32,625 nt of DNA from Elusimicrobiota bacterium (GTDB taxonomy: Bacteria > Elusimicrobiota > Elusimicrobia > Elusimicrobiales > UBA9959). Location of the stretch: positions 1 through 32,625 of the forward strand of contig DAOWCC010000003.1 of NCBI GenBank assembly GCA_030639665.1, given 5' to 3'. The notes beneath the pieces were generated by a model, which saw nothing but the letters and a program-made list of their open reading frames with translations, was not told the DNA's origin and searched no databases. The translations under genes were made by a program, and so were the position numbers. This document shows, piece by piece, positions 3,316-27,235 of this stretch (position 1 is its first letter; the number at the start of each line of letters is the position of its first letter).

Positions 3316-4506
3316 ATGATTGACGCGAAAAAGATAAATGAAGCGGTAAAAAAACAGGAAAAAAATATAGTTGCTTTTGCCAGAGATTTGGTGAAGATTT
3401 CAAGTTTTTCAATGGAAGAGGGCCCGGTCGCCAAAAGAATATTGAAAGAAATGAAGAAAGTCAGTTTTGATAAGGCCAAGATAGATAAAATGGGCAATGT
3501 TATAGGATTTATAGGCAAAGGCCGGAAAAAAATAATGATGGACGCCCACATAGATACGGTTGGAGTGGGAGATAAATCGGCTTGGAAAATAAATCCTTTT
3601 GCCGGAATTTTAAAGAACGGCGTTATTTACGGCAGGGGTGCGACCGACCAAAAGCTGTCAATGGCTTCCATGGTTTACGCCGGAAAAATTATTAAGGACC
3701 TTAAACTTTATAATGATTTTACTTTGATGGTGGTGGGTTCATGCCAGGAAGAGGATTGCGACGGCCTTCCTTTGCTTCACATAATTAATAAAGAAAAGCT
3801 TAAACCGGATTTCGTTGTTTTAACCGAGCCGACAAATCTTGCCGTTTATAGAGGACACAGGGGCAGAATGGAAATGAAGGTTACGGTTAAAGGGAAATCC
3901 TGCCACGCTTCCGCTCCCGAGCGCGGTGATAACGCAGTGATTAAGATGACTGCCATAGCGCAAGAAATAACCGCGCTTAATAAAAAATTGAAAAAAGATA
4001 AATTTTTGGGCAAAGGCACTGTGGCCGTAACTTCCATAGACTGCAAAACTCCCTCGTTAAACGCCATTCCCGACGAATGCGCCGTTTATTTGGACAGAAG
4101 GCTCACTATCGGTGAAACGCTTAAAACTTCGGTAGCCGAGATTAAGAAGCTCGCCTCGGTTAAAAAATTCAAAGCGAAAGTGGAAGTTCTGCAATATGAG
4201 GCCGTTTCATGGACGGGTTTAAAAGTGGGACAGGAAAAATATTTTCCAACTTGGGTTTTGCCGGCAAACCATAAACTTGTTAAGGCCGGAGTTGAGGCGG
4301 GAAAAATAGCTCTCGGGAAAAAGCCCGTGGTTGATAAGTGGGTTTTTTCAACCAATGGAGTCGCGTCTTGCGGAAGATTAAAAATACCGTCAATAGGCTT
4401 CGGTCCTTCAGATGAGATTTACGCGCATACGGTTAAGGAGAATATGCCTGTTTCTCATCTTTTAAAAGCCGCTTCTTTTTATGCGTCCATAGGCATGTTC
4501 CTTTAG
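3316..4506 (+). CDS. ygeY: YgeY-type M20 family metallopeptidase/deacylase
   Basis: 'MMDAHIDTVGVGD', 'GRGATDQKLSMASMVYAGKIIKDL', 'QEEDCDG', 'TEPTNLAVYRGHRGRMEM' and 'SCHASAPERGDNA' closely resemble the YgeY subfamily; RBS ggagg upstream. Confidence 0.85.
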   Translation: MIDAKKINEAVKKQEKNIVAFARDLVKISSFSMEEGPVAKRILKEMKKVSFDKAKIDKMGNVIGFIGKGRKKIMMDAHIDTVGVGDKSAWKINPFAGILKNGVIYGRGATDQKLSMASMVYAGKIIKDLKLYNDFTLMVVGSCQEEDCDGLPLLHIINKEKLKPDFVVLTEPTNLAVYRGHRGRMEMKVTVKGKSCHASAPERGDNAVIKMTAIAQEITALNKKLKKDKFLGKGTVAVTSIDCKTPSLNAIPDECAVYLDRRLTIGETLKTSVAEIKKLASVKKFKAKVEVLQYEAVSWTGLKVGQEKYFPTWVLPANHKLVKAGVEAGKIALGKKPVVDKWVFSTNGVASCGRLKIPSIGFGPSDEIYAHTVKENMPVSHLLKAASFYASIGMFL

Positions 4507-4529: not shown

Positions 4530-5579
4530 ATGATTCCACGAGAATTAGATCTTTGCGTTACAAATAAATGCAATATGAATTGCCTTTATTGCTATGCCGC
4601 CGGAAAAAATTTGGAGAACAAAAGTTTAACGCTTGAGGAAATGAAAAAGGCCGTTCTTATGTATTTTGAAGCCGCATTGTCTGAAAAGAGAAAAATCGAC
4701 AAAATAAGCGTTTCGGGGGGAGAGCCTCTTACTCATTGGGACGCTGTGTCCCGGTTTATTTTGTGGTTTTCAAAGCATACTCCGCAAGATGTAAACGCCG
4801 AAATTTTCACGAACGGTTTGTTATTGGATAAAGATAAGGCCAAGCTTATACTTGATAACGGGTTTAAATTAAGGATAAGTTTTGACGGGCTTAAAAAAAC
4901 TCATGACGCGAGCCGCGTATCCGTTTCGGGAAAATCTTCTTTTGACGGATTTATGAAAAACTTTAATTCTTTCCCTCTTTCTTTAAAGAAACGATGTGAA
5001 GTTGTGCCCATAGTATCGGAAAGAAATGTCGCGGATATGGCGGATAATATGAAGTTTTTGATGGATTTGGGATTTGCTTGCGTTAAGCCTTCTTTTGTTT
5101 TGGATGAAGTGTGGAAAAAGCAATCGTTTAAAATTCTGACCCGGCAATTTGATTTGCTAAAGGAACTTTTAAAAAAGCAAAAAAAATATTCTTTAAAGTT
5201 TGAAAAAATAGCTTTAAAAAATCTCTCCGGCGGCTTAAAGGAATTTTCCGCGTCAAATGAAATATCCGTCGGAACGGATGGCTGGTTTTATCCCTCCTCT
5301 CTGATTTCAGCTTCCGTGGCGGCTAAAAGCGAAGCCTTTAAAAAAAGATACCGCGTGGGAAATATAAACCGGGGCATAGACACGGAAAAATTCGGCAAAT
5401 TGAGGGAGTCTGCTTTTAAAGATATAAAAAAATCAAAAGCGGAGCTTTATTTAGGTTGTCTTCTTTGCATGCACTATAGCTCTAAAGTAAAGAAAGTGGA
5501 TTTTGAAAAACTTCTTCTAAGCGGCGATCAAATAGCTAAAATTACGGCCGCCTCGGGTTTGGGGGAAATTTCCTCTTGA
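4530..5579 (+). CDS. Radical SAM protein, SPASM-like
   Basis: 'CVTNKCNMNCLYCYAAG' (CxxxCxxC), 'VSGGEPLTHWD', 'RISFDGLKKTHD', C-terminal 'LGCLLCMHYSS'. Confidence 0.85.
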   Translation: MIPRELDLCVTNKCNMNCLYCYAAGKNLENKSLTLEEMKKAVLMYFEAALSEKRKIDKISVSGGEPLTHWDAVSRFILWFSKHTPQDVNAEIFTNGLLLDKDKAKLILDNGFKLRISFDGLKKTHDASRVSVSGKSSFDGFMKNFNSFPLSLKKRCEVVPIVSERNVADMADNMKFLMDLGFACVKPSFVLDEVWKKQSFKILTRQFDLLKELLKKQKKYSLKFEKIALKNLSGGLKEFSASNEISVGTDGWFYPSSLISASVAAKSEAFKKRYRVGNINRGIDTEKFGKLRESAFKDIKKSKAELYLGCLLCMHYSSKVKKVDFEKLLLSGDQIAKITAASGLGEISS

Positions 5580-5617: not shown

Positions 5618-7051
5618 ATGAGACATCCGTCCGTTTTACTTATTAAAAGCAGAAGTCTTATCGCTAAAAATACGGGAATCACTCCTCCCTTGGGCATATT
5701 GTATATAGCGGCTTATTTGAGAGAACGATTGAAAGCCGATGTCAAAATTATTGATACCGTCTGGGAAACCGATCCTTTGAACGCTGTTCGCTCCGCTGTC
5801 CGGGAGCAGAATCCCGATATTGTTGGGATAAGCGCTCTTACGGCGGAAGCCTTTTTAGCTCATAAAATCGCGGACGCGGTAAAAAGCGAAAATTCCGGTG
5901 TTCCGGTTATAATGGGCGGGCCCCATCCTTCTTCTCAGCCTGAGTTGGCGATGAATGATAAAAATATTGACGCTCTTATTGTGGGAGAAGGAGAGGTAAC
6001 ATTTTGCGAGCTTCTAAGGGTGATTGTTGAGGAAGGGCATCATTGGAAAAATTCAAAAATTCTGGCCAAAATAGACGGACTGGTTTTTAGAGGCGAAGGC
6101 ATTGAATTTTCAAAATCCAGAGCTCCCATAACTGATTTGGATTCTTTGCCTTTTCCGGCCTGGGACCTTATTGATTATAAAAAGTTTTGGACAAAAGCGA
6201 GCATGGCCACGATTGGCATAAGGCCTTATTTAACAATGTTTACTTCAAGGGGCTGTCCTTATCATTGTGTTTTTTGCCATCAGCTTTTTGGAAAGGTTTT
6301 TCGCGCCAGGTCTCCCGAAAGCGTGGCGGAAGAAGTCAGGCAAATACTTAAAATGGGAGCGAAACATATAGAGGTTTTGGATGATATCTCCAATCTTGAT
6401 CATAATAGATTTAATGGAATGCTTGAACTGATGCTTAAAGATAACTTACATCCCGTTTTAAGTTTTCCAAACGCCATAAGGGCCGATATTATGCGAGAAG
6501 ATTCCATTGATTTGCTTAAAAAAGTGGGCGTGGGAGAAGTTTCAGTGGCTATTGAGACGGCTTCAAATCGTTTGCAAAAATTGATAAAAAAAAATCTTTC
6601 ATTGGATAAGGCGTCAAAAACCATAGAAATGCTGACAAAACGGAGGATTTTTACCCGGGGATTTTTTATGCTGGGCCTGCCGACTGAGACTGAGGAAGAA
6701 ATGCGCTCCACCATTCGCTTTGCCCATAAATCCTCATTGCATCTCGCTTTGTTTTTTACGCCCAATCCTTTCCGCAATACCGAGCTTTACGATATGTTCG
6801 TAAAAGCGGGAAAACTGCCCGATAAATCCAGCACGATAGATTTTGAATATTACGGCTCTCCTTTTAACGCGAGCGAGATTCCCGAAAAAAAATACAGATT
6901 TTTATATAAATGGGCTTATTACGGATTTTATTTTAATATTATCAGGATGTTTCGCATAGCGCGCGACAGGCCTTTATGGTCGGATATTCCTCTTCGCGCT
7001 TATTCCTTGTTTCGCAATATCGTGTCATTTAGGAGATTAAAGGAAAATTGA
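5618..7051 (+). CDS. B12-binding-domain radical SAM protein (subfamily A, copy 1)
   Basis: N-terminal Rossmann-like cobalamin-binding region 'PLGILYIAAYLRERL...VIMGGPHPSSQPE...VGEGEVTF', then 'TSRGCPYHCVFCHQ' (CxxxCxxC). Start at 5618 chosen by alignment with the paralog at 11586; the ORF track begins at 5594. Confidence 0.9.
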   Translation: MRHPSVLLIKSRSLIAKNTGITPPLGILYIAAYLRERLKADVKIIDTVWETDPLNAVRSAVREQNPDIVGISALTAEAFLAHKIADAVKSENSGVPVIMGGPHPSSQPELAMNDKNIDALIVGEGEVTFCELLRVIVEEGHHWKNSKILAKIDGLVFRGEGIEFSKSRAPITDLDSLPFPAWDLIDYKKFWTKASMATIGIRPYLTMFTSRGCPYHCVFCHQLFGKVFRARSPESVAEEVRQILKMGAKHIEVLDDISNLDHNRFNGMLELMLKDNLHPVLSFPNAIRADIMREDSIDLLKKVGVGEVSVAIETASNRLQKLIKKNLSLDKASKTIEMLTKRRIFTRGFFMLGLPTETEEEMRSTIRFAHKSSLHLALFFTPNPFRNTELYDMFVKAGKLPDKSSTIDFEYYGSPFNASEIPEKKYRFLYKWAYYGFYFNIIRMFRIARDRPLWSDIPLRAYSLFRNIVSFRRLKEN

Positions 7052-7052
7052 T

Positions 7053-8585
7053 ATGGCCAATGTTTTGATTATGACGCCGTCTTCTCTTTACAGAAGGTGG
7101 CCCACCACTCCCGATACCACCAAGATGGCCACAAACGCGGCTCCCGTCACAATGCCGCAGCTTGCCGCCGCTTTGCCTAAGCATAATGTTAAAATTCACG
7201 ATGGCAACGCTTATGATATTTCACTCACTGAATACGCCGAATTATTACAATGGGCGGATATTGTCGCCATGAATATCATGAGCTCTTACGCGGCTTTGAA
7301 CAGCGAACTTAATATTCGGTTTATAAAAAAAATAAAGCCTGAAATAAAGGTGATACTTGGCGGTCATCACGCGACTTTTCAGGCGCAGGAATGGCTTTCA
7401 AAGGGGGCGGATGTCGTGGTTAGGCGCGAGGGAGAAATTACGCTGCCGGAAGTTGTGGACGCTTTGATTGAGAAAAAAGATCTCGCGCGGGTATTGGGCA
7501 TTTCTTGGAATTTGCAAGGCGATATTATTCATAATCAGGACCGTCCTTTTATTGAAAATTTGGATTCTTTGCCTTTGCCCAGATGGGATTTAATGAATTT
7601 TGGCAAATATTATTTGTATCTTCGAAAAAAGGGCTATCAGGCCTGTCTTGAAACCAGCAGAGGATGCGAGCAGCATTGCGCGTTTTGCCAGGTGGGCCCG
7701 ATGTGGAAGCATACTCACAGATTCAAATCCGTCGAAAGAGTGAGAGAGGAAATGAGACTGCTTAAGAGCTGCGGGGTTGAACAATTGTTTATCGTTGATG
7801 ACAATTACGGCTCCAATATGGATACCGACAGGCAAGCCGATATATACAAAATGATGCGTAAGGAAAATTTTAATTTTGAGTGGGGCGGATTTTTCAGGCA
7901 TGATTATATTTCATCAAATCATAAACTTCTTAAAGAGGCCGCGGCTACCGGCCTGAAATTCGCCTGCATAGGTTTTGAAAGCGTGGAAGGTTCCGACCTT
8001 AATTCCTTCAATAAAAAAAATTCTTCTTTCAAAAATCTCGATTCATACGCTAAGGAATATGAGTTTTTAAAGAGTCTTGGAATAATCAGTTTTGGTTTTA
8101 TTGTGATAGGCTATCCGGGGCAAAATGAAAGTTCCGCCATCGCAACTCTGGAGAACGCGCATAAATTTTGTAATTATCCCGTGGTTACCCTATATAAGCC
8201 TTTGCCCGGCACCGCCGGTTATATAAAAACGAAAAAAGAAGGCTTGCTGACAAAAAAAATGTTTTATCATGATTCTTTTACCGTGGCCATTAAAGGCACC
8301 AGGCCTATTTTAGCCAAATATAATCGGTTTTTTATCAAGTATTTAATGAGTCCGTCGCGTCTGGTGAAAGGGCTCATGAATAAAAATTGCAGGCCGATAG
8401 AAGTTGTTTTCTTTAAATGGTTTATCGGGGGTATTTTAAGAGCCAATTTTAAAAATGTCGGCGATTTTTTCTGGTTTATTTTTAAAGGCCGTAAATTACA
8501 GGAAGAAAAAGTCATGGAATATTTATGCGAAAATCATCTTTCGGATAAAAATGTTTCCCAACTTGTTAATAAAGCGAAAAAATGA
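7053..8585 (+). CDS. B12-binding-domain radical SAM protein (subfamily B, copy 1)
   Basis: 'VILGGHHATFQAQEWLSKGADVVVRREGE', 'TSRGCEQHCAFCQVG', 'DMFYHD'-type motif (KMFYHD) near C-terminus. Confidence 0.9.
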   Translation: MANVLIMTPSSLYRRWPTTPDTTKMATNAAPVTMPQLAAALPKHNVKIHDGNAYDISLTEYAELLQWADIVAMNIMSSYAALNSELNIRFIKKIKPEIKVILGGHHATFQAQEWLSKGADVVVRREGEITLPEVVDALIEKKDLARVLGISWNLQGDIIHNQDRPFIENLDSLPLPRWDLMNFGKYYLYLRKKGYQACLETSRGCEQHCAFCQVGPMWKHTHRFKSVERVREEMRLLKSCGVEQLFIVDDNYGSNMDTDRQADIYKMMRKENFNFEWGGFFRHDYISSNHKLLKEAAATGLKFACIGFESVEGSDLNSFNKKNSSFKNLDSYAKEYEFLKSLGIISFGFIVIGYPGQNESSAIATLENAHKFCNYPVVTLYKPLPGTAGYIKTKKEGLLTKKMFYHDSFTVAIKGTRPILAKYNRFFIKYLMSPSRLVKGLMNKNCRPIEVVFFKWFIGGILRANFKNVGDFFWFIFKGRKLQEEKVMEYLCENHLSDKNVSQLVNKAKK

Positions 8586-10129
8586 AGAAAAAAAATATTA
8601 TATTAATGAATTCTCTAAGGCTTGCGCCGCGGTTTATGTCCACAAATGAATTTTCGCTTGTTTGGGGCCCTCATCCTTTGGTGACTCTCCCTCTTTTAGC
8701 CACTATGGTTCCCAAAAATTGGAATATTAAATTGTTGGATCCCATTGTTTACAATGTAAAACTGAAAGATTTTGGCTCTTTAATACAGAAAGCCGATGTA
8801 GTGTCAATAACCTGTACGGCTTCAAGTTCAGCTCTCAATACGGAGATGACTATAAAATTAATCAGGCAATTAAGGCCGGATATTCATATTGTGCTTGGCG
8901 GGCATCATTCTTCGTTTTATCCCAAAGAGTGGCTCGAAAAAGGGGCGAGTATTATTGTCAGAGGAGAAGGTGAATATACTTTAAAGGAAATTCTGGAGTC
9001 TATTGAAAAAAATGAAGGCTTTGACAAAATTAAGGGAATATCGTTTATTTCCGGCAATAAAATAATTCATAATCCCGATAGAGAATTAATGCCCGATCTT
9101 GACGCTTTGCCGTTTCCCAGATGGGATTTAATGGATTTTGGGCGTTATAATCAATTCACTCGCAGAAAAGGATTGACTGTGGGGATTGAAACCACGCGCG
9201 GTTGCACGAATAAATGTTCATTTTGTCTGGTTAATAAAATGTGGAAAGGAGAGCAGCGGTATCGCTCTCTTAATAAATCCATGGAAGATATTAAGCGGCT
9301 TTATTCGATGGGAGCAAGGCAATTGGGATTTGTGGGAGACGGTTTTGGCAATCCTCCCGACAGGCATATGGAATTGATGAAAGCCATACAAAAAGAAAAA
9401 ATGGATATTGATTGGATGTCGTTTATGAGGGTTGATTCCATTTTAAAAGAACCCCGTTTAGCCAAAGAAATGGCAAAGGCGGGATGCAAAGCTGTTTTTA
9501 TCGGTTTTGAATCGCCTTTTCAAAACCTGTTAAAAATATGGCAAAAAGGCCCCGACGGTTTGGCGAAAGTTTCAACATATCAAAAAGTTTATGAGCTTTT
9601 GGATAAAGAGGGAATACTTGTTTTTGGATTTTTAATAGTCGGGCATCCCCAAGAGCCTGAAGGAATAGTTCCTAAAATTTTTCGGGAATATCAAAAATGG
9701 TGCGATATTCCTTTGGTAAATGCCATTCAGCCGATGAAGGGAACTCTTGATTATGAGGATTATGAAAAGAAAGATTTATTGGCCAAAGATATGTTTTATC
9801 ATGATATAAGAATTCCGAGTTTGAAAGGTTCAAATAGAAATGTTCATGAGGGTTTAAGTTTGTTCGGTAAGAAAATTATTTTTGAGTTTCCGTTTTATAT
9901 GTTTTCGGCTAAAAAAACAAAAAGACAATTTTTCAGGCATATGTATTTGTTTTTAATAAAGAAACTTCTTGAAACGAATTTGGCCGAGCTTAAAGATTAT
10001 TGGCTATTGCTGAATTTTAATAAAATGTCTCCTTCAGACTTGCAGAACGCGGTAATAAACAGAAATCTTAATCCGAAAAAAATAAGCAAACTCGCGGAAA
10101 AATGCAGAAAAGGATTTAGCGTTTTATAG
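8582..10129 (+). CDS. B12-binding-domain radical SAM protein (subfamily B, copy 2)
   Basis: 'IVLGGHHSSFYPKEWLEKGASIIVRGEGE', 'TTRGCTNKCSFCLVN', 'DMFYHD'. ATGA overlap with the upstream gene. Confidence 0.9.
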   Translation: MKKKNIILMNSLRLAPRFMSTNEFSLVWGPHPLVTLPLLATMVPKNWNIKLLDPIVYNVKLKDFGSLIQKADVVSITCTASSSALNTEMTIKLIRQLRPDIHIVLGGHHSSFYPKEWLEKGASIIVRGEGEYTLKEILESIEKNEGFDKIKGISFISGNKIIHNPDRELMPDLDALPFPRWDLMDFGRYNQFTRRKGLTVGIETTRGCTNKCSFCLVNKMWKGEQRYRSLNKSMEDIKRLYSMGARQLGFVGDGFGNPPDRHMELMKAIQKEKMDIDWMSFMRVDSILKEPRLAKEMAKAGCKAVFIGFESPFQNLLKIWQKGPDGLAKVSTYQKVYELLDKEGILVFGFLIVGHPQEPEGIVPKIFREYQKWCDIPLVNAIQPMKGTLDYEDYEKKDLLAKDMFYHDIRIPSLKGSNRNVHEGLSLFGKKIIFEFPFYMFSAKKTKRQFFRHMYLFLIKKLLETNLAELKDYWLLLNFNKMSPSDLQNAVINRNLNPKKISKLAEKCRKGFSVL

Positions 10130-10164
10130 AAACCTGTCATGTATATATCTTATAATGATAAGTA

Positions 10165-11589
10165 ATGGCTAAAGTTTTACTTACGACTCCTCCTTGGCTG
10201 CATTTTCACAGCTTGCAGGTATTGTTTCCCAATATTCCGCCTTTAAATCTTCAAATTTTGGCCGGCGTATTGCGTAATGCCGGCCATGAAGTAATGATTG
10301 CCGATATTCAGCATTTGCCGCTTTCAGATAAGAAATTACAGCGGATGATAGAATCATTTCGACCGGATATCATAGGTTTTTCAGTTTCCGAAATTGCCAC
10401 CACTCCCATTGTCGTTGAGATGGCTGCCAAATTGCGCGAGCGATATCCGAATATAAAATGGTTGGCCGGCGGACAAGCCCCCTCATTCAGTCCGGAATTG
10501 TTTTTGGGAAATAATAAGCCTTTTGACGCGGTCGCCTTATATGAAGGTGAAAACACTATCGCGAATATTGTGTCGGCGCTCGCGGCGGGTTCATTGTCCA
10601 AAGATATTCCCGGCGCCGCTTGGCTCGGAGCCGGCGGAAAAATTGAACGCTCCAAAATAGAGCGTTTAATTTGCGATTTGGATAATAGTCCTTTGCCTTA
10701 TGTGGAAGGAACTTTAAAGAGGGCTTATTATTCGGATGGATTTTGCGGAGCCATTGAGACGGCGCGAGGCTGTCCTTTTAAATGTAATTTTTGTCCCGTG
10801 CCGAATTTTTACGGCAATCCCACCAGATATAAATCCGCTAAGCGCATTTTGGAAGAAATAAGGCAATTAAAAGCGAAAGGCGCCACTGAAATAGCTTTCA
10901 ATGATGACTCTTTCGGGACGAGGTTGCAGATTGCTCGAGAAGTTTTTGAAACAATGATTCGCGAGAATATGAAACTTCGTTTCGGACTTCAAATTCGCGC
11001 CGATATCATCGCGGCCAATCCCGACCTTATTGAGCTGGGGGCCAAGGCCGGTCTGGGTTTGGCTGTAGTCGGTTTTGAGGGTTATACCTTGGCCGTGCAA
11101 GCTAAAGCGGATAAAGGCAATTCCGCCGAAATTAATTATGCCGCTTCGCGGATTTTGCGCCGCAATGGAATTTTTGTTTACGGAACACATATATTCGGCG
11201 GTCCCGGCACCTCTTGGCGCGACAATTTTATTACTTTTTTAAAAGGAAGATTCAATTCCGATATTTTTAGGATGACGATTTTTACTCCCGTGCCCGGCTC
11301 GCCTATTTATAATGAACTTTCCAGCGCGAATTATATTGATGTTAGCAATCCAGGCGATTTTTATGAAGGTAAATATCTTATTCCCAATTCTTTTAATCCT
11401 TTTTTGGTGGAGTTTATGTATTTCGGTTTATTGGCTTTGCATTATGCTTTGCCCGACACTTTGTTTAAGGCGCTGTTTCATTCCAATTTGGATTACCGCG
11501 TTTTTCATCGGCGGGCGTATAAAGCGGCGTTTCTATTTGTTATCGGACAAATCGCTTCGCGGTTCAGAAAAAAAAGGTATGAAATATGA
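10165..11589 (+). CDS. B12-binding-domain radical SAM protein (subfamily C)
   Basis: 'PPLNLQILAGVLRNAGHEVMIADI...WLAGGQAPSFSPELF', 'TARGCPFKCNFCPVPNFYG'. Confidence 0.9.
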   Translation: MAKVLLTTPPWLHFHSLQVLFPNIPPLNLQILAGVLRNAGHEVMIADIQHLPLSDKKLQRMIESFRPDIIGFSVSEIATTPIVVEMAAKLRERYPNIKWLAGGQAPSFSPELFLGNNKPFDAVALYEGENTIANIVSALAAGSLSKDIPGAAWLGAGGKIERSKIERLICDLDNSPLPYVEGTLKRAYYSDGFCGAIETARGCPFKCNFCPVPNFYGNPTRYKSAKRILEEIRQLKAKGATEIAFNDDSFGTRLQIAREVFETMIRENMKLRFGLQIRADIIAANPDLIELGAKAGLGLAVVGFEGYTLAVQAKADKGNSAEINYAASRILRRNGIFVYGTHIFGGPGTSWRDNFITFLKGRFNSDIFRMTIFTPVPGSPIYNELSSANYIDVSNPGDFYEGKYLIPNSFNPFLVEFMYFGLLALHYALPDTLFKALFHSNLDYRVFHRRAYKAAFLFVIGQIASRFRKKRYEI

Positions 11590-13034
11590 CCAGACGGCCG
11601 AAAATTTTATTTGTGAAAAGTCGGAGCATGACTTCAAAGATAAAGGGAACATATGTTTCATTGGGCATTCTTTATATAGCGACATACTTGCGTAAAACTC
11701 TTTCGGCGACAGTGCGCATTATTAACACTATGTGGGATGACGATAATCCTCTAAAAACGGTACTCGACGGAACGCGGGAATTTAAGCCCGACGCGCTTGG
11801 AATCAGCGCTCTTACAGCGGAAGCCTTTTTGGCTCATAAAATAGCGGCCGCCGTAAAAAGCGAAAACCCCGATTTGCCCGTTATAATGGGCGGTCCTTAT
11901 CCTTCTTCGGACCCCGAAAGAGCTCTTAGCGATTTAAATGTGGATATTGTCATTATCGGTGAAGGCGAGGAAACATTCAAAGAACTTGCCGGCGTTATTA
12001 TGAAAGAAGGTCCGCGTTGGAAGGAAGCGAATATATTAAATTCCATTGCCGGTATAGCGTTTCGCGATGGTGAAAATACGCGTATTACGGCTGTCCGTCC
12101 GCCGATAAAAGATCTCGATTCTTTGCCCTTTCCCGATTGGGACCTTATAGATTATCATCGTTTTTGGAAACTCGGCAAATGCGGCATGGCGACCATTGGC
12201 CACAGTTATTATCTGCCGATTTATACTTCCAGAGGCTGTCCTTATAATTGTATTTATTGCCATCAGATTTTCGGTAAAAAATTTAGAGCCCGTTCTCCCG
12301 AGAATGTGGTGGACGAAATAGCTCAAATTATGCGCCGCGGGGTAAATCACATCGAGGTTTTGGACGATATATCCAATTTTGATCAAAAGCGTTTTAATCG
12401 CATACTGGAAATAATGCTGGAGCGAAATCTTCATCCCATGATGAGTTTTCCGAACGGCATTCGCGCCGACCTAATGACCGAAGACTCCATTGATTTGCTT
12501 AAAAAAGTGGGCACGGGGGAGATATCCATAGCTGTTGAAACCGCTTCCAATCGTTTGCAAAAACTATTGGATAAAAATCTTTCTCTTGAAAGAACATGGA
12601 ATACCATAGAAATGTTCGCGAAGCGAAAAATATTCACTCGCGGTTTTTTTATGCTTGGTTTTCCCACCGAAACGGAAGAAGAAATTCGTTCAACTATACG
12701 ATACGCTCATAAATCCAATCTGCATCTCGCTTTGTTTTTTACGCCCAATCCTTTTAAAAACACCAAGCTTTACGATATGTTTACAGATGCCGGAAAAATG
12801 CCGTCCGATACGCGCACCATAGATTTTGAATATTTCGGCTCGCCTTTCAATGGCAGTGAAGTATCGGAAAAGACTTATAAGAGGCTCTACTATTGGGCTT
12901 ATGCTGGATTTCACTTTCATCCGCGCCGCATGTTTCGCATACTTCGCGACAGGCCTTGCAAGGCTGATATTCCGGCGCGAGCTCTGGGATTATTCAGTAA
13001 TTTAGTTTCATTTCGCCGTCTTAAGGAAAATTGA
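11586..13034 (+). CDS. B12-binding-domain radical SAM protein (subfamily A, copy 2)
   Basis: Paralog of the 5618 gene along its length: 'KSRSMTSK', 'ISALTAEAFLAHKIA', 'TSRGCPYNCIYCHQIFGKKFRARSPE', 'LHLALFFTPNPF', C-terminus 'SFRRLKEN' identical. ATGA overlap with upstream gene. Confidence 0.92.
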   Translation: MTRRPKILFVKSRSMTSKIKGTYVSLGILYIATYLRKTLSATVRIINTMWDDDNPLKTVLDGTREFKPDALGISALTAEAFLAHKIAAAVKSENPDLPVIMGGPYPSSDPERALSDLNVDIVIIGEGEETFKELAGVIMKEGPRWKEANILNSIAGIAFRDGENTRITAVRPPIKDLDSLPFPDWDLIDYHRFWKLGKCGMATIGHSYYLPIYTSRGCPYNCIYCHQIFGKKFRARSPENVVDEIAQIMRRGVNHIEVLDDISNFDQKRFNRILEIMLERNLHPMMSFPNGIRADLMTEDSIDLLKKVGTGEISIAVETASNRLQKLLDKNLSLERTWNTIEMFAKRKIFTRGFFMLGFPTETEEEIRSTIRYAHKSNLHLALFFTPNPFKNTKLYDMFTDAGKMPSDTRTIDFEYFGSPFNGSEVSEKTYKRLYYWAYAGFHFHPRRMFRILRDRPCKADIPARALGLFSNLVSFRRLKEN

Positions 13035-13035
13035 T

Positions 13036-14469
13036 ATGCCTAAAATTCTGATGTTGCAGCCTGTTAGAATCCATAAACGCTGGCCCGTGCCCGAAGACTT
13101 TACGGGACTTCTCGGCGCTTCGCCGACTCTCGCTTTCGCGCAATTGCGCGCTAAGCTTAAAAATTACGAAGCGGACTATATGGACGGTTTGGCCAGAGAA
13201 TATTCGCTCGCGGAGCTTACTCGGCGCGCGAAAGCGGTTGATGCCGTTCTTATAAACGCCCATTCCAGTGTGGGCGCTCTTAACGCGGAAGCGAATGTCA
13301 GGCATATTTTAGACAATTGTCCCGGCGTTCCGATAATTATGGGAGGCCATCACGCTACGGTTTATGATTTTCAATGGCTTGGGCGCGGAGCGCATTTTGT
13401 CGTGCGCAATGAAGGTGAAGAAACCATCGTTGAATTGCTTGAGGCTATTTTTAAAGGCGGTTCTTATGATGAGATAAAGGGAATTTCATGGCAGGGTCCC
13501 GGCAATGAATTCCACCGTAATCCGCCCAGATCCTTGATTAAGAATTTAGATGATTTGCCCATTCCCGATTGGGGCATCTACGACAAAAAACTTTATCACT
13601 TGCCTTTGCCCATTAAGGGTTATTCAACTACGGCGGAAACTTCCCGAGGCTGTCCTTATCATTGCAGTTTTTGCGCAGCGAGCGAGATGTGGATGCATAA
13701 GCAGAGGTTTAAAAGTCCAGAGAGAGTTTTGGAAGAATTGCGAATTTTAGGCAAGCTGGGTTTTACAAAAATCTGGTTTGCCGATGATAATTTCGGGCAG
13801 GATCCCGAGCGCTATGCCCAAATATACGAGGGCATTCTTAGGGAAAATATGAAGTTCAATTTTGTGGTTTTCATTCGTTCCGATAATATCGTGAAATCGC
13901 CAGAAGTCATGAGGCTTGCTCATCGCGCGGGCATGCGCGTGGCGCTCGTCGGCATTGAAAGCGCCGTGGACCGCCTTCTTACGGATTGTTCCAAGGTCAG
14001 TGAGGCCGAGACCAGCCGGAAAGCGGTTGAGATTTTGCGTGAAATAGGTATTTTCATCGGAGGTTTCCTTATGGTAGGCTACCTCGATGAGAAACAGGAT
14101 GAAACAGACACCACCTTTCGCGCGGCAAATGAGATGACGGATTATCCCATTATATCCATATTCGAACCGCGATTCGGAACAAAAGATTTTGTTCGCGCCA
14201 AAGCCAAATTGGATACGCCGGGCGGCGATATGTTCTATCATAATACCGAACATTTTATTCCGAGTATGGTTCATGTTTTGCCGCAATATAGAGATTTTTA
14301 TAGGCGTTATTTAACTCATCCCAAACAAATAAATAAGCTTTTATTCGGCACTCCGACGCAAAAAAAGTGTTACCGCACTTTGTATATGAATCTGGCAAAA
14401 TCAGTCCTGCGCGTTACTCCCGCCATGCTGGCCAATCCATGGGAAATGACACGGGATATATACAAATAG
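13036..14469 (+). CDS. B12-binding-domain radical SAM protein (subfamily B, copy 3)
   Basis: 'IIMGGHHATVYDFQWLGRGAHFVVRNEGE', 'TSRGCPYHCSFCAASEMW', 'DMFYHN'. Confidence 0.9.
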   Translation: MPKILMLQPVRIHKRWPVPEDFTGLLGASPTLAFAQLRAKLKNYEADYMDGLAREYSLAELTRRAKAVDAVLINAHSSVGALNAEANVRHILDNCPGVPIIMGGHHATVYDFQWLGRGAHFVVRNEGEETIVELLEAIFKGGSYDEIKGISWQGPGNEFHRNPPRSLIKNLDDLPIPDWGIYDKKLYHLPLPIKGYSTTAETSRGCPYHCSFCAASEMWMHKQRFKSPERVLEELRILGKLGFTKIWFADDNFGQDPERYAQIYEGILRENMKFNFVVFIRSDNIVKSPEVMRLAHRAGMRVALVGIESAVDRLLTDCSKVSEAETSRKAVEILREIGIFIGGFLMVGYLDEKQDETDTTFRAANEMTDYPIISIFEPRFGTKDFVRAKAKLDTPGGDMFYHNTEHFIPSMVHVLPQYRDFYRRYLTHPKQINKLLFGTPTQKKCYRTLYMNLAKSVLRVTPAMLANPWEMTRDIYK

Positions 14470-14529
14470 GTTTCATGATAGTGATGTTTGTTATAAAAAA
14501 ACGATTAACATTTAATGCTATTCTAAAAA

Positions 14530-15843
14530 ATGACAGCTAAGAAAAAATTATCTGAAAAAGTTCTGATTTTGGGCGCCGGTTTAACGGGGCTTAGCGCGGC
14601 TTATAAATTAAAAACGCTCGGCTTTAAAAATGTTTTAGTTTTAGAAAAAGAAAAAAGACCGGGGGGGCTGTTAAAAACCGATAGGAAAGAGGGAGGCGCT
14701 ATAGACCAATTGCCTCATGTTTTTTTCAGCAAGGATAAAACAGTTAAAAGTTTTTTTCTTAAAATGGTCGGAAAAGTTTACAGGCATTCTCATAAACTGG
14801 GGGTTTTGTGGAAAAACGGCTATATTGATTATCCTTTTCAAAACAATATACATCAACTGGAAATAGAGGAAAGAAAAAAAATTCTGAAAGGATTGTTTGA
14901 AAGAAAGCCGCTTAAAAATTTAAAAGCCGGAAATTTTGAAGATTTCGCCGTAAAAACTTTTGGGAACGAATTAACGGAACTGTTTTTCCGGCCCTATAAT
15001 GAAAAGCTTTGGCTGACGCCGCTGAAAAAAATGGATTATAAATGGCTCGCGTCAAAAATAAAAATGCAGGAACCCTCTGAACTTGTTGAAAGCGTTTTGG
15101 GCGCTGAAAATAAAAAAGATAAAGCCGTGGCGCCTCATGCTGAGTTTATTTATCCAAAGAAAGGCGGCATTCAAACGCTTATTGACGGCTTGATTGCCGA
15201 AGTGGGCGCGGATAAAATCAAGCTTGATATTAATATAACCAGGATAGACTCCAAGAAAAAAACGGTTTTCGCGGGAAAAGAAATTTTTCATTACGATAAA
15301 ATCATTTCCACTTTACCTTTAAATGAAGCGGTTAAACTGTCAGGCATGAAAAAGAATGGAAGCGCTTTAAAACGCTTGAAAGCGACAAAGGTTTTTTGCG
15401 TTCAATATGTTCTTAAAAAAATCAATCTTCCCCGGTATCATTGGATATATGTTCCAGGCAAGAAGTTTCCCTTTTATCGCTTAACCAGAGAGGAATTGAT
15501 AAATCCCAAAGCGTTTAAAAATAAAAAAGTTTTGCTGGTTGAATGCGCCATGGGTAAATCCGATTTTCCAAATGAAAAAACTTTTATTAAGGAAATTACT
15601 TCCCATCTCGAAAAGTTAAATATTTTAAAGAGAAAAGACATAGAGCGGATGTGGCATTCCGATCATTTTCCTGCCTATCCCGTTCCGCATTTGAAAGGAG
15701 AGAAGGATATTTCTTTTTGTTTGAATGAGCTTTTAAAAAGGGGAATAATTTCCGCGGGCCGATCGGGAGAATGGTTTATAAAAAATATGGACCATAGCAT
15801 TTTGGCGGGCTTTAAGGCCGCGGGGGAAATTTTAAAAAGATGA
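14530..15843 (+). CDS. FAD/NAD(P)-dependent amine oxidase-type protein (protoporphyrinogen oxidase / UDP-galactopyranose mutase-like)
   Basis: 'KVLILGAGLTGLSAAYKLKTLGFKNVLVLEKEKRPGGLLKT' dinucleotide-binding motif; C-terminal 'GIISAGRSGEWFIKNMDHSILAGFKAA'. Confidence 0.85.
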   Translation: MTAKKKLSEKVLILGAGLTGLSAAYKLKTLGFKNVLVLEKEKRPGGLLKTDRKEGGAIDQLPHVFFSKDKTVKSFFLKMVGKVYRHSHKLGVLWKNGYIDYPFQNNIHQLEIEERKKILKGLFERKPLKNLKAGNFEDFAVKTFGNELTELFFRPYNEKLWLTPLKKMDYKWLASKIKMQEPSELVESVLGAENKKDKAVAPHAEFIYPKKGGIQTLIDGLIAEVGADKIKLDINITRIDSKKKTVFAGKEIFHYDKIISTLPLNEAVKLSGMKKNGSALKRLKATKVFCVQYVLKKINLPRYHWIYVPGKKFPFYRLTREELINPKAFKNKKVLLVECAMGKSDFPNEKTFIKEITSHLEKLNILKRKDIERMWHSDHFPAYPVPHLKGEKDISFCLNELLKRGIISAGRSGEWFIKNMDHSILAGFKAAGEILKR

Positions 15844-16787
15844 TTCCGGCGGTGATACTTACGGCGGGGGAAGGTAAACGCCTTGGAAAGATGTCAAAGA
15901 ACTTTTCCAAGAGTTTGCTGACGGTGGGCGATTCCACTTTACTGGCGGGGCATTTAAATAATTTTCTTGAAATCGGAATTAATGAATTTATTATCGTGGC
16001 GGATCCTTTGTCCGAGGATATAGAAAAAGAGGCCCAAAAAGTTCTCAAAAACCGGAAGGCTTCTTTTCGCGTTGTTCATCAGAAAAAAAGATTAGGCATA
16101 GGCCACGCGGCTTTGCTTGCCGAAAAATATATCGGCGAGGGAGAATTTATTCTTGTCTTGGGAGATACTTTTTATTCGCCCGGGGATATTTTAGCCGCCA
16201 TTAAGGAGATAACTTCCGGCTCCGTCGATGCCGTTTTATCGGTGAGAAAAGTTTCCGATGACAAAGAAATACTTAAAGAATGCACCGTTAAGCTTGATGA
16301 AAACAATGTTGTTGAAAAAATAGTTGAAAAGCCCGAGCGGGCCTTGAGCATGATGAAGCCTTGCGGAGTTTATTTTTTTAATCATAAGTTTTTTAAACAT
16401 TTGAAAAAAACTTCGGCATCTTCTTTAAGGGGTGAAATAGAGCTGACTGACGCCATAGATAATTTTGTTCGGGAAGGCGGAATGGTTGTGGCCAGAAATA
16501 CTTTGAAGTTTGATGTTAATATAAATTATCCAAGGGATATATTGGCCGCCAATTTAGCCTGGCTCGCCCAAAAAAAAATAAAATGTTTTTCTCACGCGAG
16601 CGCCGTTATAGGCGAAGACGTTTCGCTTTCTGAAAGCGTTGTGGGCCAAAACAGCCGGATTGGAAAGTTTTCCAAGCTGAGGCGGGTTGTGGTTTTTCCC
16701 GGCAGTGAAGTTTCTCCCAATTCAAATTTGGAAAATATTATTGTTCTGCCGGATATGAAAATTCCGGTTTTGCCGGATGAAAATTAA
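15840..16787 (+). CDS. NDP-sugar pyrophosphorylase-like nucleotidyltransferase with short hexapeptide-type C-terminus
   Basis: 'AVILTAGEGKRLGKMSKNFSKSLLTVGDSTLL', 'FILVLGDTFYSPGD', 'VEKPERAL', C-terminal 'AVIGEDVSLSESVVGQNSRIGKFSKL'. ATGA overlap with upstream gene. Confidence 0.85.
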   Translation: MIPAVILTAGEGKRLGKMSKNFSKSLLTVGDSTLLAGHLNNFLEIGINEFIIVADPLSEDIEKEAQKVLKNRKASFRVVHQKKRLGIGHAALLAEKYIGEGEFILVLGDTFYSPGDILAAIKEITSGSVDAVLSVRKVSDDKEILKECTVKLDENNVVEKIVEKPERALSMMKPCGVYFFNHKFFKHLKKTSASSLRGEIELTDAIDNFVREGGMVVARNTLKFDVNINYPRDILAANLAWLAQKKIKCFSHASAVIGEDVSLSESVVGQNSRIGKFSKLRRVVVFPGSEVSPNSNLENIIVLPDMKIPVLPDEN

Positions 16788-18243
16788 GATGAAAAAAAAT
16801 ATACTTCTTTTCCAGCCTCGAATCGGCGATATGGATATGTTCCGGGATAAGCCGACGCCTCCCATGGGATTATTATGCGCCTGCTCTCTGGCGAGCCAAA
16901 AATTTGAAATAAGGCTTCTGGACCAGAGGATAAATAGAGATTGGAAAAAAGTTTTAAAAACTCTCATAGATGATAATACGATAGCTATTGGAATCAGCAT
17001 TATGACCGGCGGGATGATTAGCCACGCCCTCAAAGCGGCTTCTGAAATAAGGCGTCTTACAAAAGCTCCGCTTATCTGGGGTGGGGTGCATCCGTCTCTT
17101 TTGCCGGAGCAAACCGTTTTAAACAAATTCGTGGATTATGTGATTGCCGGAGAGGGAGAAGAAGCCTTTGCCAAACTTGTGGAAAAAATTTCCATAAATG
17201 AAAATGCCGATAATATTCCCGGAGTTTGGACCAAGTCAAACGCGCGGATAAAAGAACGCCCTGAGAAACCTTTGCTTGATATGAATAATCTTCCGGGCGT
17301 TCCTCATCATTTGGTGGATATGGAAAAATATGTTCAGACATACCGCGGAAAACGAATGTTTTTTTATCAAGCGAGCAGAGGTTGTCCGTGCCGGTGCTCC
17401 TATTGTTATAACAAGGTGTTTAATTTGGGGCTTTTGCGTTCGGCCGATATTGAAAAAGTTTTGCGGGATTTAAAACAATTGAAGGATAAATACGAGTTTT
17501 CTCTGGTGTATTTTTTGGATGACAATTTTCTTATAGACAAAAAGCGGGCTTTAACTATTTTAAGGGGACTTAAAGAGCTGGGTTTGGGGAGCGTTCTTCA
17601 AGGGGTGGATATAGAGAGTTTGAATCGTTTGTCGGATGAAGAATTGGATTTTTTGGAGGCTTCGGGAGTTGAAAGAATCGCGATAGGGGTTGAATCCGGC
17701 TCAAACAGAATCAGAAATAATATTTTGAAAAAAGAAGGAAGCGTGGAGCTGGCGAGGCGCCAGCTGATTCGTTTTAAAAACAGAAAAATTATCGTTTTAT
17801 TTTCTTTGATGATAGGCTTGCCTTCTGAAACCGCCGATGAAATAAAAGAAACTGTTAAATTCGGCTTGGATATTTTAAAAATGGGGCCTAATTTCAGGAT
17901 ACCTCAGTTTTATATATTTTCTCCCTATCCCGGAACGCTTTTGTTTGAGGAGTTGAAACGCGAAGGCGTAAGTTTTCCGTCAAAGCTTGAGGCTTGGGGA
18001 AAATATGAATGGGATTATTCGCATATGCATGAAAAAAATCCCGGCATTAAGGATTTTTTGGAGAGAGTGGGTTTTTTAAGCAAGTTTTTGGATTCGAAAT
18101 TCGGTGATTATGGTTCCGGTAAAATTCTGAAAATTATCTATGATTTTTATCGTCCCATAGCTTGGTTTAGATTGAGCCGCGGTTTAATGAAGCCTTTGCC
18201 TGAGAAGTTTTTTTACAGCCTATTAAAAAAAATATTCGCCTAA
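16777..18243 (+). CDS. B12-binding-domain radical SAM protein (seventh in window, distinct subfamily)
   Basis: 'PPMGLLCACSLASQKFEIRLLDQR...LIWGGVHPSLLPEQTV...VIAGEGEEAF', 'ASRGCPCRCSYCYNKVFN'. Overlaps upstream gene by 11 nt. Confidence 0.9.
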   Translation: MKIKMKKNILLFQPRIGDMDMFRDKPTPPMGLLCACSLASQKFEIRLLDQRINRDWKKVLKTLIDDNTIAIGISIMTGGMISHALKAASEIRRLTKAPLIWGGVHPSLLPEQTVLNKFVDYVIAGEGEEAFAKLVEKISINENADNIPGVWTKSNARIKERPEKPLLDMNNLPGVPHHLVDMEKYVQTYRGKRMFFYQASRGCPCRCSYCYNKVFNLGLLRSADIEKVLRDLKQLKDKYEFSLVYFLDDNFLIDKKRALTILRGLKELGLGSVLQGVDIESLNRLSDEELDFLEASGVERIAIGVESGSNRIRNNILKKEGSVELARRQLIRFKNRKIIVLFSLMIGLPSETADEIKETVKFGLDILKMGPNFRIPQFYIFSPYPGTLLFEELKREGVSFPSKLEAWGKYEWDYSHMHEKNPGIKDFLERVGFLSKFLDSKFGDYGSGKILKIIYDFYRPIAWFRLSRGLMKPLPEKFFYSLLKKIFA

Positions 18244-18297
18244 AATTATGTATAGGAATTTCAAGGTTTAGCCACAAAAAGCGCAAAAAGCGCAAAA

Positions 18298-18384
18298 CAA
18301 ATCTCCCCCGGCCCCTCTTTGACAAAGAGGGGAGAAAGAATAAAAGTTCTTCCCCCTTTTGCAAAGGGGGCTAGGGGGATTTTG
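18298..18384. repeat. Large imperfect palindrome of C/G-tract type, with an internal small hairpin
   Basis: Left arm 'aaatctcccccggcccctctttgacaaagaggggagaa' is near the reverse complement of 'ttcttcccccttttgcaaagggggctagggggatttt'. Left arm itself contains cccctcttt-gac-aaagagggg. Confidence 0.85.
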
Positions 18385-18404
18385 GCAGGATAAAGAAAAG
18401 TTTA

Positions 18405-18792
18405 GACCGAAGGTCGGCTAACTTGTCGTATAGGAATTTCAAAGCTATGCTGGGTGCCGTTTTAAAGAGCTATGCTCCTCAGACGGCCAAAGTAGGCGCA
18501 AAAGGAAGGGACACATATACGAATTAAACGCAGAGTTCACAGAGAACATAAAAGCGCAGAGAACGCGAAGGAAGAATAAAAAATAGGAAAAATCTGTAAA
18601 AATCCGCGTCTGTTCGCCACAGTATATTGGCGGGGCAAAAGTTGTTTGGTCGTCCGCATAGCTACCGACACCTTATGAAGCATAGCTTCGTTAATTGTAG
18701 TTTGGGTTTGAGTTTTTAACTCTGCGGACTCTCTGTAAAAAGCTCTGCGTTCTCTGCGTTAAAAAAAGTCGCTACCAAAGGCAGCCTAATTA
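18405..18792. repeat. Non-coding composite inverted-repeat element (copy 1)
   Basis: Outer arms 18525-18572 (aaacgcagagttcacagagaac...) and 18717-18762 (...gttctctgcgtt) are complementary. Internal AGCTATGCT at 18443 and 18468 opposes GCATAGCT at 18656 and 18679. Ends 'accaaaggcagcctaatt'. Shares core and ends with the 23.5 kb element. Confidence 0.8.
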
Positions 18793-19542
18793 TTAGGGCT
18801 GTTGAAAGAAATATTTTTTCCTAAAATATTTAAAAATCGTTTTTAATATTTCAAATAAATACGGCAACGGAGATAGGCTGGAAAATTGGGTTCCGTAATG
18901 AGCTGTTATGGGCAACTGCGCTACGCGAAGTTTTAGTTTTCCCGCGCAAAGCAGCATTTCGCCGTCAAAATGAAATTTATCCGTAAGGGTTTCAAATTTT
19001 ATGGCCCGCAAAGCTTTTAAAGAATATGCCATATATCCCGAATGGTATTCGGCGAAATTTAAATTAAAGATTTTATTTTCAATGAAGGTTATAAGGCGGC
19101 TTGCGAAATATCGGAGTTTGGGCATGCCCTCGCTTAAGGCTTTTCCTGAAATAAGTTTGGAGCCCATTGAAACATCCGCTTTTCCCGTCATCAGAGGCTT
19201 GATTATCCGCGCCATTTCTTCGGGGGCGTATTGTCCGTCGGCATGAAGCAAAACAGAGAATTTACAGCCTGATGAAAGAGACTCTTTTAAGCCGGTTTTC
19301 TGGGCGGCTCCATAGCCTTTATTGGATTTGTGATTGAGCACGATAAAATTTAATTGTAGCTCTTTCCCGGCTTTTTCGGCTTCAATTGAGGTGTTGTCAC
19401 TGCTTCCGTCGTTTATTATTACTATAATTGATGGAGGCAATTCCTTTAAGTGACGATTAAGCCTTGAAAGAGTTTGAAAAATGGTCTTTTCCGCGTTAAA
19501 GGCGGGAATGATTATGGCAAGTTGGGGTTCATTTGAAAACAT
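18793..19542 (-). CDS. Family 2 glycosyltransferase (dolichol-phosphate mannosyltransferase-like)
   Basis: 'LAIIIPAFNAEKTIFQTLSRLNRHL', 'IVIINDGSSDNTS', 'VLLHADGQYAPEEMARI', 'GSKLISGKAL'. Start chosen at the 'MFSNEPQ' Met; the ORF track extends to 19608. Confidence 0.85.
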   Translation of the reverse strand: MFSNEPQLAIIIPAFNAEKTIFQTLSRLNRHLKELPPSIIVIINDGSSDNTSIEAEKAGKELQLNFIVLNHKSNKGYGAAQKTGLKESLSSGCKFSVLLHADGQYAPEEMARIIKPLMTGKADVSMGSKLISGKALSEGMPKLRYFASRLITFIENKIFNLNFAEYHSGYMAYSLKALRAIKFETLTDKFHFDGEMLLCAGKLKLRVAQLPITAHYGTQFSSLSPLPYLFEILKTIFKYFRKKYFFQQP

Positions 19543-19573
19543 GGGATTTGAGTTTAACTGAAATATCAAAAAT

Positions 19574-21321: not shown

Positions 21322-22335
21322 ATGAAAACAATGCTTAGAGGCAAAGATTGGATAGAGACCGTAAACTGGTCAAAAGAAGAACTGGAAACCGTTTTAGATG
21401 TTGCCAAATATCTTAAGATGAAATTCTCTCTTGGCGAAGCGCATAGAATCCTTCAAGATAAAACTTTATTCATGATGTTTTTTGAACAATCCACAAGAAC
21501 CAGAAATTCAACCGAAGCCGCTATGACTCAGCTTGGCGGACATGCCCATGATTTGACTCCTGATAAAATGCAGATATCTCATGGAGAGACGCCCAAAGAT
21601 ACGGGCAAAGTGCTTTCAAGATACGGCCACGGCATAGCCATAAGAAATTGTTTTTACGGCGTTGGAAACAAATATATAAGAGAGGTTGCCAAGGAAGCTG
21701 ATATTCCCGTTAGCAATCTTCAATGCGATGTTGATCATCCCTGTCAAACAATAGCGGATTTAATGACCATAAGGGAAAAATTCGGAACAAACCTCAAAGG
21801 CATGAAATTTGTTATTTCTTGGACTTATGCTCCCGCTTATGCGCGGCCTCTTTCCGTTCCTCAGGGTCTGGTAACCTTAATGCCGAGATTCGGCATGGAT
21901 GTTGTGCTTGCCCATCCGAAAGAATTTAAGCTTATGCCCAAAACCATAGCGGACGCGGAAAAATATGCCAGAGAATCCGGTTCAAAGTTTGAAATTGTCA
22001 ACGATATGGATGAAGCTTTCAAAGACGCCATAGTGCTTTATCCCAAATCATGGGGCTGTCATCAATTTCTTGATGAACAAAAAATTCCCGAGAAAGAAAG
22101 ACAGGCGCAGGGTATGGAATATTTGAATAAATACAAATCCTGGGTTTGCACTGAAAAAAGAATGAAACTTGCTGATAAGAAATCCGTCTATATGCATCCC
22201 CTTCCGGCCGATAGAGGCGCCGAGGTTGAAGACGCGGTAATTGACGGCCCGCAAAGCATTGTTTTTGATCAGGCGGAAAACAGGCTGCATACCGTAAAAT
22301 CAATACTCGCTCTTACAATGGGCGGCAGACCATAA
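21322..22335 (+). CDS. ygeW: YgeW-like (knotted) carbamoyltransferase
   Basis: 'FEQSTRTRNSTEAAMTQLGGHAHDL' (STRT motif), 'DVDHPCQTIADLMT' (HPxQ), 'SWTYAPAYARPLSVPQG', 'YMHPLPADRGAEV'; aaggag RBS. Confidence 0.85.
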   Translation: MKTMLRGKDWIETVNWSKEELETVLDVAKYLKMKFSLGEAHRILQDKTLFMMFFEQSTRTRNSTEAAMTQLGGHAHDLTPDKMQISHGETPKDTGKVLSRYGHGIAIRNCFYGVGNKYIREVAKEADIPVSNLQCDVDHPCQTIADLMTIREKFGTNLKGMKFVISWTYAPAYARPLSVPQGLVTLMPRFGMDVVLAHPKEFKLMPKTIADAEKYARESGSKFEIVNDMDEAFKDAIVLYPKSWGCHQFLDEQKIPEKERQAQGMEYLNKYKSWVCTEKRMKLADKKSVYMHPLPADRGAEVEDAVIDGPQSIVFDQAENRLHTVKSILALTMGGRP

Positions 22336-22393
22336 AAATAGCGCGGCAGCGCGGCAGTACTTTGTGTTAAAAAAAAATAAAGGAAAATTTAAA

Positions 22394-23479: not shown

Positions 23480-23493
23480 ACCATTTTGAGCCG

Positions 23494-23512
23494 CCGGTTG
23501 CCGGTCACCGGT
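23494..23512 (+). repeat. Short interspersed repeat ccggttgccggtcaccggt
   Basis: 16/19 match to the reverse complement of 31013-31032; both intergenic. Confidence 0.5.
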
Positions 23513-23529
23513 ATGAGTGAGCCTTTTGT

Positions 23530-23772: not shown

Positions 23773-23779
23773 TAAAAGA

Positions 23780-27153: not shown

Positions 27154-27181
27154 TTTTTTACGGCGGAAAACAGTTCTCAAA

Positions 27182-27213
27182 CCCCGCGGATATTGTTCCG
27201 CGGGGCTTTTTTA
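27182..27213 (+). terminator. Rho-independent terminator
   Basis: ccccgcgga-tattgt-tccgcgggg followed by cttttttattt. Confidence 0.9.
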
Positions 27214-27235
27214 TTTCATTCTTGATCTCAATCAA

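Follow-up and report, generated by a model that had tools for sequence, protein, structure and literature searches.

A conserved cluster with seven B12-binding radical SAM genes in one family of Elusimicrobiota, and its possible role in glycosylated lipid biosynthesis

Background

To our knowledge, the described pathways that use B12-binding radical S-adenosylmethionine (SAM) enzymes contain one to a few such enzymes each. Here, a nine-gene operon holding seven of them was analyzed, located at 5.6–18.2 kb on contig DAOWCC010000003.1 of an Elusimicrobiota draft genome (GCA_030639665.1; 2.26 Mb, 276 contigs). The window, meaning the whole 32,625-base stretch of DNA under analysis, is the complete contig.

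Among related systems, the ladderane candidates of anammox bacteria (Kuste2803 and its neighbors) pair B12-radical-SAM enzymes with phytoene-desaturase-like flavoenzymes (PMC2649909). Full-length structures of B12-radical-SAM enzymes numbered four in a 2025 review, which also places the loop after Rossmann strand 3 on the lower cobalt side (OxsB Asn186, TsrM Arg69, TokK Trp76; PMC13331322). A literature search, the coverage of which left out many subscription journals, did not find the present cluster described. Its enzymes belong to a known superfamily; the cluster, the gene combination and the product are new to the searched literature.

Gene content of the cluster

The operon runs in the order A1, B1, B2, C, A2, B3, FAD, NTase, D. 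Six consecutive open reading frames (ORFs) encoding B12-binding and radical SAM domains end at 14469, and the seventh (D) lies 3' of the flavoenzyme and nucleotidyltransferase genes; the coordinates and ORFs given in an earlier interpretation made without database searches (the sequence-only reading) were thereby confirmed. The first of these ORFs could start at 5594, giving a longer product, and the start at 5618 is favored by homologues. Adjacent genes of the operon overlap by at most 11 bases or are separated by at most 60, a spacing typical of operons. Genome-wide, PF02310 was matched 11 times in 2.26 Mb, and seven of these matches fall inside these 12.6 kb.

While the core genes of the extent first proposed (5618–18243) stood, its end was set too early. 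GT2 and TMprop should be counted as cluster members beyond 18243, because their order is conserved and they co-occur with the rest. The GT2 ORF as listed spans 18793–19608 on the minus strand, with about 19542 being the likelier start. The genes are as follows.

4530 to 5579, plus strand: SPASM-type radical SAM gene directly 5' of A1, PapB-like, below cut-off
5618 to 7051, plus strand: A1, putative B12-binding radical SAM enzyme, BchE/HpnJ-like, below all equivalog cut-offs (PF02310 1e-24, PF04055 2e-22)
7053 to 8585, plus strand: B1, putative B12-binding radical SAM enzyme (Pfam), in an orthologous clade of 8 with support 100/100
8582 to 10129, plus strand: B2, putative B12-binding radical SAM enzyme (Pfam), in an orthologous clade
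10165 to 11589, plus strand: C, putative B12-binding radical SAM enzyme, best match HpnR
11586 to 13034, plus strand: A2, putative B12-binding radical SAM enzyme, predicted structure matching MgmA, CysS, TokK, AprD4 and OxsB
13036 to 14469, plus strand: B3, putative B12-binding radical SAM enzyme, with an invariant His in the loop predicted to lie beneath the cobalt face
14530 to 15843, plus strand: FAD, UDP-galactopyranose-mutase-like flavoenzyme with the GGH loop altered to LPH
15840 to 16787, plus strand: NTase, predicted sugar-1-phosphate nucleotidyltransferase with a partial left-handed beta-helix tail (PF00483 6e-22)
16777 to 18243, plus strand: D, putative B12-binding radical SAM enzyme, 3' of NTase in nearly all genomes read
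18793 to 19542, minus strand: GT2, predicted glycosyltransferase, AglJ/PpgS-like (polyprenyl-phosphate glycosyltransferase group; PF00535 5e-21)
19574 to 21166, plus strand: TMprop, membrane protein with about five N-terminal transmembrane helices and a C-terminal beta-propeller, found in cluster genomes only

Conservation across related genomes

In order to determine how the cluster is distributed, C was searched in 341 genomes of the phylum, and D, TMprop and other genes were searched in 101 relatives. C was found in 12 of the 341 genomes (57–63% identity), all from one family and spread over five genera. D was present in 11 of the 101 relatives and so was TMprop, in every case among the 12 genomes with C and in none of the 89 others (Fisher test, p=7.6e-14 for each; the test assumes independent genomes, an assumption that relatedness violates). 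The single missing cases of D and TMprop fall in genomes that are 63% and 78% complete. Both genomes of the same genus lack the set, so the distribution is patchy. The cluster is not a chance run of genes and is conserved across genera; scrambled neighborhoods without co-occurrence, which the sequence-only reading had named as the outcome that would speak against it, were not observed.

Neighborhoods in relatives (numbered with the prefix G) were placed by tblastn, because six-frame greedy ORF calling had made false antisense genes in high-GC relatives. The proposed order A-B-B-C-A-B-oxidase-NTase did not hold as a whole; it is kept as two blocks that usually lie apart. Block 1 comprises FAD, NTase, D, GT2 (on the opposite strand) and TMprop, with order and orientation kept in G045, G047, G016, G031, G034 and G041. 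One extra gene lies between NTase and D in G006, G026 has the entire block in inverted orientation, and all five genes stand in this order in the window. Block 2 starts with A, followed by either B1-B2 or a CrtI-like gene; many genomes next have a membrane protein gene (f8) and a CrtI-like gene, and C and A come after these, with B3 behind A in seven genomes. In G006 this block is rearranged, with C-A coming first.

The B genes are a variable module, missing from several cluster genomes that have a CrtI-like desaturase instead. Nine of the 12 cluster genomes, and none of the other relatives, have the CrtI-like gene (≥ 55% identity), which stands beside the B genes or replaces them; it had no match in the window genome, G045 or G047. 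For the CrtI-like partner family found in relatives only (f2), the best NCBIfam model was crtI_fam (TIGR02734), matched over its full length with 202 of 238 bits, that is, below the subfamily cut-off.

A homologue of the SPASM gene adjoins A or C in three relatives (47–50%) and lies at or near FAD in five others (34–35%), making this gene a probable partner of the cluster, though not a constant one. A 4Fe-4S membrane ferredoxin-type protein is encoded 5' of A in several relatives and is a possible electron donor. A MetH-like gene, called by eye, and an apparent activation-domain gene were also seen directly 5' of the A homologue in G031:C7 and G046:C110 (L046, L058), a weak hint of methyl demand.

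Two further observations concern A and D homologues elsewhere. A second, different tandem array of B12-radical-SAM genes was seen in G043 (L051), G005 (L052-L053) and G036 (L056-L057), holding an A homologue, SPASM radical SAM genes, an AMP-binding CapK-like gene and a GNAT/FemAB-like gene; in G005 and G036 a flavoenzyme gene resembling UDP-galactopyranose mutase (UGM) adjoins a D-like gene. No description of this array has been seen so far in the literature. Separately, one contig (L031) in a Smithella metagenome-assembled genome carries an A homologue (61–65%) and a D-like gene, either through cross-phylum transfer or through a binning error. Around these genes are matches to LPG_synthase_TM, VTT and, marginally, PMT_2, a context that again suggests a lipid and glycosyl setting.

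The seven B12-radical-SAM enzymes

Both PF02310 and PF04055 were found above Pfam gathering scores in all seven proteins in the hidden Markov model searches that the sequence-only reading had proposed, with an N-terminal B12-binding domain followed by the radical SAM barrel. The CxxxCxxC motif is intact in all seven and present in 32/32 A, 25/25 B, 12/12 C and 16/16 D sequences. Based on these domains and motifs, the proteins are assigned as putative B12-dependent radical SAM enzymes of the N-terminal Rossmann class. None reached an NCBIfam equivalog cut-off, scores being about one-sixth to one-third of the requirement; the nearest models were BchE (A1, A2 and B3), PhpK (B1 and B2), HpnR (C) and HpnJ (D). 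Together with the co-occurrence across genera, this bears out the earlier claim of an undescribed multi-step biosynthetic cluster.

The subfamilies first drawn by eye (two A, three B, one C and one more) agree with the trees and with pairwise identities (65% between A1 and A2; 31–35% among B1, B2 and B3; C and D each alone). Across genomes, the orthologues of B1, of B2 and of B3 each group with full support in a clade of their own, so these three are old, separately maintained paralogues. A orthologues are two-copy in cluster genomes. In the A tree, a single clade (97/97) unites the copies that most relatives carry ahead of B1 or the CrtI-like gene, while the window's own pair has no firm position. 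C has 161 invariant residues across its 12 sequences.

The predicted structure of A2 (predicted local distance difference test, pLDDT, 78) matched MgmA, CysS, TokK, AprD4, OxsB and TsrM, its best matches being B12-radical-SAM enzymes and the related AprD4. At the column aligned to OxsB Asn186, A has Leu, B1 Met, B2 Thr/Ser, B3 His, C Ser and D Met, which suggests divergent chemistry among the paralogues, not redundancy. The B3 His is invariant in seven sequences; judged by sequence alignment rather than by structure, it would lie under the cobalt. It would be unusual there, since we know of no solved B12-radical-SAM enzyme of this class that is His-ligated.

The sugar-related genes

The flavoenzyme had been labeled an amine or FAD oxidase, which was wrong: its closest relative is UGM (4dsg, E=7e-44, full-length alignment). 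Catalytic roles known from the Trypanosoma cruzi enzyme (PMC4192007) were mapped onto 11 orthologues, with chain numbers taken to differ from those of the paper by three throughout, as deduced from the residues. Equivalents of His62, Tyr317, Arg327, Tyr395, Arg423 and Asn433 are kept; the flavin-side His62 and the diphosphate-contacting or neighboring Arg327, Tyr395, Arg423 and Asn433 are invariant in 11/11. The protein thus probably acts on a diphosphate-linked sugar. Other catalytic positions are altered, so it should not be called a UGM.

NTase matched PF00483 with 78.8 bits and has 91 invariant residues, including G10-x-G12-x-R14-L15 and K24. Its nearest solved structures are the Sulfolobus-type sugar-1-phosphate enzymes 2ggo/5z09, and by domain and conserved catalytic motifs it is predicted to be a sugar-1-phosphate nucleotidyltransferase. 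For GT2, which keeps its site and orientation in relatives, the best NCBIfam models were AglJ and PpgS, both below cut-off; these nearest families glycosylate polyprenyl phosphates. A profile search of TMprop returned the beta-propeller only, with no database name for the protein, and its single-sequence structure prediction (pLDDT 43) was too poor for a fold search.

Proposed pathway and alternatives

Held tentatively, at less than even confidence, the favored interpretation is that the cluster encodes a conserved pathway by which anaerobic bacteria would make a membrane lipid, isoprenoid or long-chain, that is both modified and glycosylated. The substrate, suggested in the sequence-only reading to be a lipid, glycan or small molecule, would be narrowed tentatively towards a glycolipid or isoprenoid. 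We infer two halves and an order of steps. In the sugar half, NTase would activate a sugar 1-phosphate, the UGM-like flavoenzyme would rearrange the nucleotide-linked (or polyprenyl-diphosphate-linked) sugar, D would tailor the rearranged sugar by B12-radical-SAM chemistry, GT2 would move it onto a lipid carrier, and TMprop would work in the membrane at this transfer or later. In the other half, A1, B1, B2, C, A2 and B3 would modify unactivated carbons of the hydrophobic partner in series. C-methylation via methylcobalamin and a 5'-deoxyadenosyl radical appears the likeliest chemistry on the chain, with ring formation as the alternative, because most members of the family are presumed methylases (PMC13142503). 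In related species, a CrtI-like flavin desaturase that accompanies or replaces the B enzymes would give a variant product, and this cluster-specific enzyme, given its crtI_fam score, points to a polyene, long unsaturated or isoprenoid chain.

Several points weigh against this interpretation. In most relatives the two blocks are on different contigs or well apart, and they could therefore be two pathways sharing one organism. The window genome has no CrtI-like gene, so the argument for a chain rests on the relatives. Squalene/phytoene synthase (PF00494) occurs in 98 of 101 relatives and does not track the cluster; being near-universal, it is uninformative as a tracer. The FAD orthologues are without the defining UGM features in 11/11 (GGH to LPH, Arg176 to Lys, Asn201 to His, Tyr429 missing).

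A rather doubtful alternative is that all seven B12-radical-SAM enzymes act on the sugars of a surface glycan or exopolysaccharide on a polyprenyl carrier, by C-methylation, deoxygenation or ring contraction of nucleoside diphosphate sugars or a lipid-linked oligosaccharide. NTase, the UGM-like flavoenzyme and GT2 are all sugar enzymes, the A2 model shows structural likeness to AprD4 and OxsB, which act on sugars or nucleotides, and close A homologues stand with CapK-like and GNAT/FemAB-like genes in the arrays of G043, G005 and G036. However, the desaturase specific to the cluster in 9/12 genomes is hard to fit into a sugar pathway, and there is one glycosyltransferase only, with no polymerase or export genes seen. 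The patchy distribution and variable modules, both typical of secondary metabolism, would also suit a secreted small-molecule natural product that is neither lipid nor glycan, and characterized B12-radical-SAM methylases are often natural-product enzymes (PMC13331322). We consider such a product improbable, as domain searches of the operon found no polyketide synthase (PKS), nonribosomal peptide synthetase (NRPS), amide-bond or export genes and the partners that recur constantly are membrane and glycosyl enzymes. This agrees with the earlier observation of a sugar-nucleotide component and of no PKS/NRPS genes or precursor of a ribosomally synthesized and post-translationally modified peptide (RiPP).

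Modification of a ribosomal peptide or protein, in which the upstream SPASM gene and the Hxs-type genes that relatives carry close to the block would belong to one RiPP-like system, is distinctly improbable. Although the SPASM gene adjoins A1, and HxsB-like, HxsC-like and His-Xaa-Ser repeat genes lie near FAD-NTase-D in several relatives, the operon, with a largest gap of 60 bases, leaves no space for a precursor gene. ORFs in 18244–18792 are not precursor-like (a distant precursor is still possible), Hxs-like genes also occur in G044 and G055, which are without C and D, and the HxsA model had no matches in 101 genomes, within the limits that apply to low-complexity sequence. Least credible, and highly improbable, is a tetrapyrrole or other cofactor pathway in which A1 and A2 would serve as anaerobic cyclases acting on a porphyrin-like molecule. 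A1, A2 and B3 do find their best NCBIfam match in BchE, but at no more than one-third of its cut-off; functionally very different B12-radical-SAM families score almost as high, and the constant partners include no chlorophyll or porphyrin genes.

Returning to the glycosylated lipid, a bolder form of that interpretation, which we regard as unlikely, is that the product belongs to a new class of bacterial lipids, either glyco-isoprenoids or polycyclic membrane lipids. Six of the B12-radical-SAM enzymes would then act in series on an otherwise unreactive hydrocarbon chain, adding several methyl branches or new rings, and the seventh on a sugar head group rearranged by a UGM-like enzyme whose specificity would be new. 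Independently of that bolder form, the cluster product would probably prove to be a new glycolipid or lipid biomarker of uncultured anaerobes. A conserved seven-enzyme operon in which each enzyme has its own orthologue and its own lower-cobalt residue would be a natural set for deriving sequence rules of methylation versus ring formation.

Neighboring genes and other observations

Upstream of A1 the gene run continues without a large gap through the SPASM gene (4530–5579) and a YgeY hydrolase gene (3316–4506). The flanks (3316–4506, 21322–24787, 24832–26067 and 29477–30979) encode this YgeY hydrolase, a YgeW-like carbamoyltransferase, carbamate kinase, an HxsC4-like radical SAM protein, threonine synthase and another pyridoxal phosphate enzyme, several of which recur near the cluster in relatives. 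His-Xaa-Ser repeat (HxsA-like) genes and HxsB/HxsC-like radical SAM genes were seen close to the blocks at L125, L126, L127, L129 (before FAD) and L049 (G026). At 1007–3247, a 746-residue HemN-like radical SAM protein has a second radical-SAM-like stretch at its C-terminus.

Three tandem paralogous, secreted-looking proteins (26290–29304; 40–43% identical) are without a Pfam match; a homologue (46%) sits directly 3' of TMprop in G006 (L128), and these proteins may be linked to the cluster. The long intergenic stretch at 18244–18792 contains imperfect repeats, with a 29-nt direct repeat and 21-nt inverted arms of the 'cgcagagaacgc' type, and is probably a dispersed element. Promoter and terminator counts were near those of shuffled sequence, and no Rfam match was found.

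Comparison with known systems

BchE, the anaerobic cyclase and best model for A1, A2 and B3, is a non-methylating B12-radical-SAM enzyme; TIGR02026 reached at most 162 of 481 bits, below its cut-off, and tetrapyrrole genes are not among the constant partners. HpnR (hopanoid C-3 methylase) and HpnJ (hopanoid B12 radical SAM) share the two-domain architecture and, by analogy, may offer a likeness for lipid-acting chemistry in the cluster. In contrast to them, C scored 145 of 650 bits and D 107 of 577 bits, and a hopanoid pathway was rejected on finding squalene-hopene cyclase (PF13243) in 0/101 relatives, the positive control having worked. The A2 model aligns over the core with TokK, CysS, OxsB, MgmA and AprD4 (query TM-scores 0.59–0.70), yet at 16–20% identity, and the aligned lower-cobalt-face residue differs with each paralogue. 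Against the eukaryote-type UGM, FAD aligns over its full length and keeps the diphosphate-binding residues, with GGH, Arg176, Asn201 and Tyr429 changed or lost.

The ladderane candidates (TIGR04072) differ in several respects: the cluster proteins scored 78–119 bits where 360 are required, no type II fatty-acid synthase genes were found in the window, the window genome is without a CrtI-like gene, and sugar genes are present here. Like those candidates, the cluster family pairs B12-radical-SAM enzymes with a CrtI-like partner, as seen in nine relatives.

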